64,000 nt of DNA from Acidobacteriota bacterium (GTDB lineage Bacteria; Aquificota; Aquificia; Aquificales; Aquificaceae). Where the stretch lies: assembly GCA_003696155.1 (NCBI GenBank), contig RFFP01000013.1, forward strand, positions 1-64,000, read 5' to 3'. Both the position numbers and the translations under genes were made by a program. Positions within the stretch are counted from its first letter, which is position 1. Each line of letters starts with the position of its first letter. Below are positions 56,010-57,967 of the stretch, piece by piece. Under the pieces are notes generated by a model. That model ran no database searches and was not told where the DNA came from. It saw only the letters and a list, made by a program, of their open reading frames with translations.

Positions 56010-56945
56010 CTACACAAAAAGGGAGCTTATGGATTCTCCTTCGTGAGCCCGCTTTATAGATTCGGCTATCAGTGGAGCTGTCGAGACGACCCTTAGCTTT
56101 TCAAAGGTTTTATCTTCCAAGTTTAGCGTGTTTGTAACTATGACCTCTTCCACGGGGGAACCCTTTAACCTCTCTATGGCAGGACCGGAAAAAACCCCGT
56201 GGGTTGCCGCAACAAACACACCACTGGCACCCTTTGAAAGGAGAAGGTTGGTAGCGGAAACAACAGTTCCCGCAGTATCTACTATATCATCCACAATGAT
56301 GGCCTTCTTATCCTTTACATCCCCAACTATGTCTAGGACCTCAGCTACGTTAGGCTCAGGTCTACGCTTGTATATTATGGCTATACCGCACCCAAGCCTG
56401 TTGGCAAGGAGCCTGGCCCTTTCCACACCACCCGCATCCGGAGATACTACAACCTTATCACCGTCAACTCTGCCCTTTATATATTCATACAGTACGTTAA
56501 GTGCGTAAAGGTTATCCACCGGTATGTTAAAGAAGCCCTGTATCTGTGGCGAGTGAAGGTCAACTACTATGAGCCTCTGAGCTCCCGCAACGGTTAAGAG
56601 GTCAGCGATAAGCCTGGCGCTTATGGGAACCCTAGGCTTATCCTTCCTGTCCTGCCTTGAGTATGCGTAGTAGGGTATGACCGCGGTTATTCTGCCTGCA
56701 GAGGCTCTTTTAAGGGCATCCAAAATAAGTAGCAGCTCCATTATGTTCTCGTTCACCGGAGGACCGAGGGACTGAAGGACAAAGACATCCTCCCCCCTCA
56801 TAGACTCGTTTATCTTAACCCTTACCTCTCCATCGCTAAAACGACCAACAAGGGCGTCAGAAAGTGGTATGCCAAGATATTCAGAAACCTCTTGCGCAAG
56901 CTTGGGATTGCTGTTCCCAGTAATAAGCTTTATGTTGCCAAGCAT
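56010..56945 (-). CDS. prs: Ribose-phosphate pyrophosphokinase
   Basis: Makes PRPP for nucleotide, histidine and tryptophan synthesis. The 311 residues show KLITGNSNPKLAQEVSEYLG, VDLHSPQIQGFFNIPVDNLYAL, VVSPDAGGVERARLLANRL, and the PRPP loop IVDDIVDTAGTV. Shine-Dalgarno: GAGGTGAG before the ATG. It follows tRNA-Gln by 27 bases in the same direction, so its mRNA 5' end is probably made by tRNA 3' processing or by read-through. Confidence 0.96.
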   Translation of the reverse strand: MLGNIKLITGNSNPKLAQEVSEYLGIPLSDALVGRFSDGEVRVKINESMRGEDVFVLQSLGPPVNENIMELLLILDALKRASAGRITAVIPYYAYSRQDRKDKPRVPISARLIADLLTVAGAQRLIVVDLHSPQIQGFFNIPVDNLYALNVLYEYIKGRVDGDKVVVSPDAGGVERARLLANRLGCGIAIIYKRRPEPNVAEVLDIVGDVKDKKAIIVDDIVDTAGTVVSATNLLLSKGASGVFVAATHGVFSGPAIERLKGSPVEEVIVTNTLNLEDKTFEKLRVVSTAPLIAESIKRAHEGESISSLFV

Positions 56946-56972
56946 GACTCACCTCTTCCTTTTAATGGAAAG

Positions 56973-57045
56973 CTGGGGTGCCTGGATTCGAACCAGGAGC
57001 CCCCGGATCCAAAGTCCGGTGCTCTGCCAGTTGAGCTACACCCCA
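56973..57045 (-). tRNA. tRNA-Gln (anticodon TTG)
   Basis: Minus strand: acceptor TGGGGTG pairs with CACCCCA, with discriminator G. The D arm is TAGCTCAACTGGCAGAGC. The anticodon loop CTTTGGA gives anticodon TTG, which reads CAA (and CAG). The T arm is CTGGTTCGAATCCAG. CCA is not encoded (CTT follows). It lies between ispE and prs; the ispE stop codon is inside it (bases 8-10). Processing must therefore separate it from mRNA on both sides. Confidence 0.95.
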
Positions 57046-57848
57046 TAGCTTTCCACACTGTAGAGCTTCCATCCTCTCAGCCTACATCCTAGCTCAACCT
57101 GGGAATTTGGCTCACCCACATAAAATACGCATGAGCCGCTCCCACTTACAAGGCTCCTAAAGCCTAAACCCTCTAAAAACCTAAGCACCTCACCCACTTC
57201 AGGGTAAAGCTCTGCCGCCAACAGCCCTAACCTATTCTCCAGCAGGCTCAGGTCTCCAATCCTTAAGCAATCTACTATTTTATCACTTGGAGGTACACCT
57301 GTCAACATATCCCTTTTTACCCTCCTGTAGACGTAAGATGTAGAAACCTTTACATCGGGACATATGACAACAAACCTCATCTTAGGAAGCTCTAATCTTT
57401 GCAACAGTTCCCCACGCCCTCTGCCTATAGCCCACCCGCAGTAAAGAAAGAAGGGTGCATCAGAGGATACATGGCCAGCTATACTATGGAGCTCTTCAAG
57501 GCTTAAGGGCTTACCCATAAGTTCGTTTATAGCTTTAAGGATCGTTGCCACGTTAGATGAGCCGCCACCAAGTCCACCACCTTCGGGTATGTTCTTCTGT
57601 ATGTATATGCGGTAGTTTATCTCCCTTCCCAACACCTCTTCCATCTTGCGCAGAGCCTTGTATACAAGGTTTTCCTCCATGGGTATGCCCGTGCTCGTCT
57701 CAATACTTAGGGGACCTTCTTCTATAAATACCTCATCAAAGAGGGATATGCTGTTGTAGACTGTGAAAACTTCATGGTAGCCGTCCGACCTCTTGCTAAG
57801 AAGCCAAAGCCCTAAGTTCAACTTCGCTGGCGAGAGAAACCTCCACAT
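57036..57848 (-). CDS. ispE: 4-diphosphocytidyl-2-C-methyl-D-erythritol kinase
   Basis: GHMP kinase of the MEP isoprenoid pathway. The 270-residue product starts MWRFLSPAKLNLGLWLLSKRSDGYHEV; the ATP loop is IPEGGGLGGGSSNVATIL. ATG 57848 is chosen over the track start because it gives the family N terminus and follows TAAAAT by 8 nt. The last codons (Gly, Val, stop) are encoded within the acceptor stem and bases 8-10 of tRNA-Gln. Confidence 0.95.
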   Translation of the reverse strand: MWRFLSPAKLNLGLWLLSKRSDGYHEVFTVYNSISLFDEVFIEEGPLSIETSTGIPMEENLVYKALRKMEEVLGREINYRIYIQKNIPEGGGLGGGSSNVATILKAINELMGKPLSLEELHSIAGHVSSDAPFFLYCGWAIGRGRGELLQRLELPKMRFVVICPDVKVSTSYVYRRVKRDMLTGVPPSDKIVDCLRIGDLSLLENRLGLLAAELYPEVGEVLRFLEGLGFRSLVSGSGSCVFYVGEPNSQVELGCRLRGWKLYSVESYGV

Positions 57849-57856
57849 AGGTTTAT

Positions 57857-57862
57857 ATTTTA
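57857..57862 (-). promoter_or_regulatory. -10 box of ispE, leaderless type
   Basis: On the minus strand TAAAAT is followed by 8 nt and the ispE ATG. No Shine-Dalgarno is present. It would drive the long leftward operon. Confidence 0.5.
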
Positions 57863-57938
57863 GCACTCCACCTAAAATTGATATTAAATAAGTTAATAAG
57901 CTTAAGTTTTATATGCTAAAATTTTTGTAGCTTACCTC

Positions 57939-57967
57939 TTGACAAGAGATAGGGATGTTAATATAAT
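57939..57967 (+). promoter_or_regulatory. Consensus sigma-70 promoter of groESL
   Basis: TTGACA, 17 bp, TATAAT: both hexamers perfect. Transcription would begin near 57974 and the leader holds AAGGAGGTGAAAC before groES. No CIRCE inverted repeat lies between promoter and gene. Confidence 0.85.

Follow-up and report, generated by a model that had tools for sequence, protein, structure and literature searches.

The closest described precedent for the gene arrangement reported here is selC, the gene for tRNA-Sec, which is nested in or overlaps the 3′ end of selB in Alphaproteobacteria, Gammaproteobacteria and Nitrospirae (Mukai 2021, PMC8124441). The location of selC in selB was called the first bacterial case, and a non-stop mRNA was proposed as its outcome; that such an mRNA lowers protein expression is only a proposal for selB-selC, too (PMC8124441). 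Overlaps between tRNAs and mRNAs are also found in animal mitochondria, in the context of tRNA punctuation, as in cox1/tRNA-Lys of Armadillidium (cited in PMC8124441).

We examined a stretch of 64,000 nucleotides from a genome of the heat-loving Aquificaceae (the window), in which ispE runs into a tRNA-Gln gene. As in selB-selC, the 3′ end of a protein gene contains a tRNA of the same strand, in part or in full; the stop codon is located inside the tRNA in some lineages, while in others the frame reads through; and a non-stop mRNA is proposed. There are also differences. One is that a housekeeping tRNA, the single-copy tRNA-Gln, is involved, and that the protein is a metabolic enzyme without a role in tRNA biology. 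Another is that the stop codon is U8-A9-G10 of the tRNA and that a conserved promoter-like site occurs within the reading frame. The last is that a stop codon before the tRNA was regained in some selB lineages, but in none of those with adjacent ispE and tRNA-Gln. Thus, a different tRNA, gene and stop codon, together with the internal promoter-like site and a helix described below, are new here. The mitochondrial overlaps resemble this locus in that tRNA sequence is shared with a coding frame and one transcript is processed; however, mitochondrial stop codons can be completed by polyadenylation and promoters are few, whereas the present case lies on a bacterial chromosome and has an internal promoter-like site. 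A literature search gave nothing relevant on the ispE-prs-tRNA-Gln arrangement or on an internal tRNA promoter.

Overlap of ispE and tRNA-Gln in the window and its relatives

The features of the locus are listed in Table 1. IspE was identified with TIGR00154 (159.7 bits against a cut-off of 138.7) and by its match to IspE of A. aeolicus, whose structure is solved (2v2q). The listed reading frame starts at GTG 57866, homology starts at ATG 57848, and the stop codon is TAG at 57036–57038 (− strand). The tRNA was located by ARAGORN (anticodon TTG, 56972–57045, − strand) and by Rfam RF00005 (56973–57045, − strand, 70 bits); its 5′ end is 57045, and CCA is not encoded. One Gln tRNA gene per genome was found in all four genomes checked, including the window's assembly, which is without some tRNAs that complete relatives have. 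Beyond prs, the gene order continues with L25/ctc and then pth (the latter named from reading of the sequence), and the 27 nt on the 3′ side of tRNA-Gln likely hold the Shine-Dalgarno sequence for prs. Back to back with ispE, a perfect TTGACA-17-TATAAT promoter at 57939–57967 (+ strand) precedes the divergent groES-groEL.

Table 1 Features of the ispE/tRNA-Gln locus (positions in the window)
Feature	Position	Strand	Basis or remark
prs (ribose-phosphate diphosphokinase)	56010..56945	-	downstream, same cluster; ORF list, NCBIfam
Helix, trailer strand GCTTTCCAT	56965..56973	-	starts at G73
tRNA-Gln(UUG), base 1 to discriminator G73	56973..57045	-	ARAGORN, Rfam RF00005, isotype list
ispE/tRNA-Gln 10-base overlap	57036..57045	-	acceptor strand TGGGGTG and U8-A9-G10; sequence, kept in relatives
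Unpaired TA at the tRNA 5′ cleavage site	57046..57047	-	between acceptor stem and helix; alignment
Helix, leader strand GTGGAAAGC	57048..57056	-	ispE codons GTG GAA AGC; duplex energy, fold, pair counts
ispE (4-diphosphocytidyl-2-C-methyl-D-erythritol kinase)	57036..57866	-	ORF list, TIGR00154, 2v2q match
Candidate promoter for tRNA-Gln (and prs), inside ispE	57277..57305	-	TTGACA 57305-57300, 17-nt spacer, TAAAAT 57282-57277

On the − strand, the 3′ end of ispE reads GTG GAA AGC TAT GGG GTG TAG. The tRNA starts with the final T of the TAT codon (base 1); its bases 2–4 are GGG, bases 5–7 are GTG and bases 8–10 are TAG. A functional tRNA and a genuine coding frame of the same strand, at its 3′ end, therefore have 10 bases in common, as in an overlap of the selB-selC type. 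The preliminary description had placed the ispE stop codon at bases 8–10 of tRNA-Gln, with the frame running 10 bases into the tRNA, and this placement was confirmed. Its corollary, that cleavage at the 5′ end of the tRNA would remove the stop codon, follows from the location of TAG inside the tRNA, and a non-stop ispE product after such a cut is plausible.

The distribution of the arrangement was examined with an IspE search of 61 family genomes and 136 phylum genomes, in which 55 family loci were inspected. tRNA-Gln directly follows ispE in 44 of the 55 loci, and an overlap occurs in all 44; in none of them does an ispE stop codon lie ahead of the tRNA. The conservation of the overlap, a point that the preliminary description had raised, is thus complete among the adjacent loci. 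The stop codon is TAG at tRNA bases 8–10 in 36 loci, while in the other 8 (seven genomes of genus g10, which has records named Thermocrinis, and G043, a relative of the window genome) ispE reads through the whole tRNA, so that both partial and full nesting exist, as for selB-selC. In the read-through loci, a one-base difference just 5′ of the tRNA changes the frame, and the ispE stop codon is at position 87 or 90. The predicted IspE of these loci (L013, L014, L018, L020–L023 and L011) ends in a tail (LGCSSTGRAPDFGSGGSWFESRHPSF...) of about 25 residues that the tRNA encodes. In the tree, G043 is basal in the window's genus and adjoins g10, which fits two gains of the read-through state as well as a single gain followed by a reversion.

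The remaining contexts are of two kinds. In the genera g4 (Aquifex-like) and g11, tRNA-Gln is not next to ispE, which has its own stop codon, mostly TAA; IspE of g4 resembles 2v2q and has the C-terminus WKVVELEL. In the sister families, the ispE stop codon is located 0–17 nt ahead of tRNA-Gln in 43 of 44 loci: tRNA-Gln is adjacent in all 35 loci of family f2, with the stop codon preceding it in 34, and the stop codon precedes tRNA-Gln in all 6 loci of f3 (by 7–17 nt) and all 3 of f5. The exception is G104 (L110), an f2 species with RNase P RNA that acquired the overlap at TAG 8–10 independently. The adjacency with the stop codon before the tRNA in the sister families indicates that adjacency is older than the overlap, which arose by loss of a short spacer. 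Many of the genomes are draft assemblies, and a frameshift or assembly error could in principle hide a true ispE stop codon ahead of the tRNA; however, the arrangement recurs in independent genomes, including the single-contig G005, G009, G011, G019, G026 and G030, and no locus among the 44 has such a stop codon, so that we regard an artefact as hardly credible.

We also examined how unusual a tRNA-borne stop codon is. TAG occupies bases 8–10 in 16–20 of the 41–43 tRNAs per genome (three Aquificaceae genomes), and hence any reading frame entering such a tRNA in that frame ends there. Two further tRNAs of the window genome provide TAG 8–10 as the stop codon of a long upstream reading frame: tRNA-Lys(CTT) (contig C3, locus 1501, L034) for an LpxK-like frame, and tRNA-Thr(CGT) (contig C32, locus 1500, L041) for a PNPase-like frame, both labels being our own reading of the protein sequences. 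A TATAAT belonging to this tRNA-Lys lies within the LpxK-like frame, 12 nt ahead of the tRNA. In G009, the counterparts of the two tRNAs overlap upstream frames in different registers (L124, L138). A single overlap event in a compact genome is thus unremarkable, and it is the family-wide fixation that stands out, beyond chance.

A promoter-like site within ispE

Many other tRNAs of the window genome have a TATAAT 9–17 nt upstream. No close promoter was found before tRNA-Gln, where the best candidate is an 8/12 match at 76 nt, and a strong promoter for full-length ispE was also looked for and not found. Inside ispE, 260 nt upstream of tRNA-Gln, a sigma-70-type site was found with an 11/12 match and a TG-n ahead of the −10 hexamer; its expected transcript start is at about 57270. 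This site is present in 25 of 25 loci of the genera g1, g5, g7 and g10, at −259 to −263 relative to the tRNA, as well as in g2, and in a weaker version in g3 and g9. When synonymous codons were shuffled within each of the 25 genes, 0.45 sites were expected, as compared with the 25 observed, and in genus g1 the synonymous identity is 0.93 at the codons of the site, as compared with 0.51 gene-wide. The site thus combines −35 and −10 hexamers, a 17-nt spacing and conservation at synonymous positions, as is expected of an intragenic sigma-70 promoter. A terminator-like hairpin at 57210–57187 was considered and rejected: it lies in conserved codons and is at chance level (1 found, 1.0 expected).

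The site extends beyond the family: at the matching place, every one of the 35 f2 loci has TTGACA, and the −10 hexamer there is mostly a perfect TATAAT, while f3 has a similar site 47 nt ahead of the ispE stop codon. It is absent from g4 and g11, the genera with tRNA-Gln elsewhere, while it is kept in G001, in which a convergent dxs-like gene sits downstream in place of prs. These two observations tie the site to the tRNA. The simplest reading is that it is probably the promoter of tRNA-Gln, possibly together with prs, and that tRNA-Gln in this clade probably does not rely on full-length ispE transcripts. In genus g6, the overlap is present and no internal ispE promoter is recognisable; there, tRNA-Gln may depend on longer transcripts.

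With a probable promoter of its own for tRNA-Gln, the ispE and tRNA products appear less locked in conflict than at first sight. The preliminary description had held that tRNA maturation and ispE translation compete for the same transcript, and had counted a separate tRNA promoter among the two findings that together would speak against this. The promoter-like site weakens the proposed dependence on one transcript; the location of TAG still means that cleavage would take the stop codon away. A stronger version of the competition is that the overlap was selected as a regulatory switch, which couples IspE output to the demand for tRNA-Gln, comparable to the proposal for selB/selC (PMC8124441). 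Its attractions are that all of the 44 adjacent loci overlap and none was undone by a stop codon before the tRNA, that tmRNA is present (28 of 31 family genomes have a match exceeding the Rfam cut-off), and that g6 retains the overlap without a visible internal promoter. Nevertheless, in most genera the conserved internal promoter would supply the tRNA without ispE, and g4 and g11 lost the arrangement entirely. Furthermore, the lack of a stop codon ahead of the tRNA says little about selection: in the window's genus, TA-T is the last codon at which a stop would be tolerated, and its third base is tRNA base 1; gain of a stop codon is mutationally hard there, and the persistence of the overlap needs no regulatory selection. 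We therefore consider a selected switch unlikely.

Pairing between ispE codons and the tRNA trailer, and the type of RNase P

In the window's clade, the 3′ codons of ispE were found to pair with the trailer of tRNA-Gln. The 9 bp of this pairing extend the acceptor stem, and compensatory changes in them are seen among relatives. Among the 41 tRNAs of the genome, the leader-trailer duplex of tRNA-Gln ranks first (−15.3 kcal/mol against a median of −3.7), and it is predicted to persist at 75–80 °C. In 24 sequences of four genera, 8 of the 9 pairs vary and 4 have changed on both sides; the covariation score exceeds those of 500 out of 500 shuffles and of all slid controls, and true leader-trailer pairing averages −10.5 kcal/mol, as compared with −7.6 (sd 0.4) for mispaired leaders and trailers, all of these statistics being inflated by the relatedness of the sequences. 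Members of g7 have a weaker helix, and for the most part it is missing from g3 and g6, whose tRNA-Gln genes encode CCA. It is thus well supported in g1 and g10 from the sequence comparison, and uncertain elsewhere. The tRNA-Gln of g6 (L026–L030 and other loci) has, besides its encoded CCA, a leader TGGC complementary to GCCA; in the same genus, prs starts only about 10 nt past tRNA-Gln, so that processing would leave the prs mRNA with almost no leader.

The use of the protein-only RNase P (HARP) by the Aquificaceae, which had been stated beforehand, was borne out: HARP is found in 60 of 61 genomes, and the RNase P RNA (rnpB) in none. The window genome has HARP only (TIGR03875 above the cut-off, RF00010 without a match). 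In published work, two HARPs fail to cut a tRNA-His with a 9-bp acceptor stem in vitro (PMC9051087), HARP of H. thermophilus is about 10-fold slower on a substrate with the 3′ CCA (PMC10652100), and pairing of the leader with the 3′ RCCA inhibits the RNA-based RNase P of bacteria (PMC9433436). The helix resembles the paired leaders and the limiting stem of these reports (PMC9433436, PMC9051087) in extending the acceptor stem at the cleavage site. However, those results are from in vitro work with other tRNAs, whereas here the 9-bp pairing is natural, includes a bulge and has one coding strand. By analogy, the helix probably brakes the HARP cut at the 5′ end of tRNA-Gln, with the caveat that the published 9-bp stem of tRNA-His is contiguous, while a bulge of 1–5 nt is located at the cleavage site in tRNA-Gln of the window and its relatives.

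Two further roles of the helix can be considered. In one, the pairing would act as a folding lock: it would block HARP and keep the ispE stop codon intact until a 3′ nuclease trims the trailer or ribosomes cease passing. This is a tentative idea, which we would not favour at present. In the other, the helix would not brake HARP but would be bound by a nuclease specific for double strands, RNase III or another, which cuts the pre-tRNA out of the operon transcript. The compensatory changes would suit such a site, and the helix plus the acceptor stem is long enough as a double-strand substrate; the bulge at the cleavage site, and the weakness or absence of the helix in members of g3, g6 and g7, make this role improbable.

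The preliminary description had also pointed to HARP as being of special interest for this locus. In a strong form, the overlap would be due to the replacement of the RNA-based RNase P by HARP, and the distribution within the family (HARP in nearly every genome, rnpB in none, every adjacent locus overlapping) superficially agrees with this. The sister families do not. In f3, which has HARP and no RNase P RNA match, the stop codon precedes the tRNA in all six loci; HARP is missing from f2 and f5, which have RNase P RNA, and yet G104 of f2 has the overlap. The overlap is thus not confined to lineages in which HARP replaced the RNA-based enzyme, and f3 and G104 together indicate that HARP is not its cause. 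We rejected this explanation as very improbable, and the special link to HARP was not supported.

Proposed origin of the arrangement and its meaning

What the sequences themselves show is the overlap and how widely it is conserved, together with the conserved promoter motif inside ispE and the helix. The reading that we prefer, at a rough probability of 0.6, is that compaction made the overlap, which then became fixed in the family; that the tRNA comes chiefly from the promoter inside ispE; that non-stop remnants result; and that the helix slows HARP. In the ancestor, ispE, tRNA-Gln and prs would have formed a tight array. In the line to the Aquificaceae, the short spacer that separated ispE from the tRNA would have been lost along with the ispE stop codon, and the invariant U8-A9-G10 of the tRNA would have become the new one. 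The main source of tRNA-Gln would be the promoter embedded in the coding sequence; its transcripts would be without the first two thirds of ispE, and thus would make no competing ispE message. IspE would be made from longer transcripts containing the complete frame and the tRNA. Once HARP had cut one of these longer transcripts at the 5′ end of the tRNA, the ispE part would be left as a non-stop remnant, and ribosomes on it would have to be rescued by tmRNA; in the window's clade, the helix would lengthen the acceptor stem and probably slow this cut. Promoter activity, the proportions of the transcripts, the non-stop product and the slowing of HARP are the parts of this reading that we infer.

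The finding is meaningful in three respects. First, a housekeeping tRNA and a metabolic gene share a stop codon across the family, while the bacterial descriptions found were for tRNA-Sec and selB only. Second, a promoter-like site in a coding sequence is conserved between two families, which suggests that codons of the enzyme are constrained by tRNA expression. Last, with the helix, nature offers a substrate on which to study how extended acceptor stems are handled by a protein-only RNase P that measures stem length with a fixed ruler. If the folding lock were true, the only tRNA-Gln of the cell would have its promoter, as well as the brake on its maturation, encoded by ispE codons.
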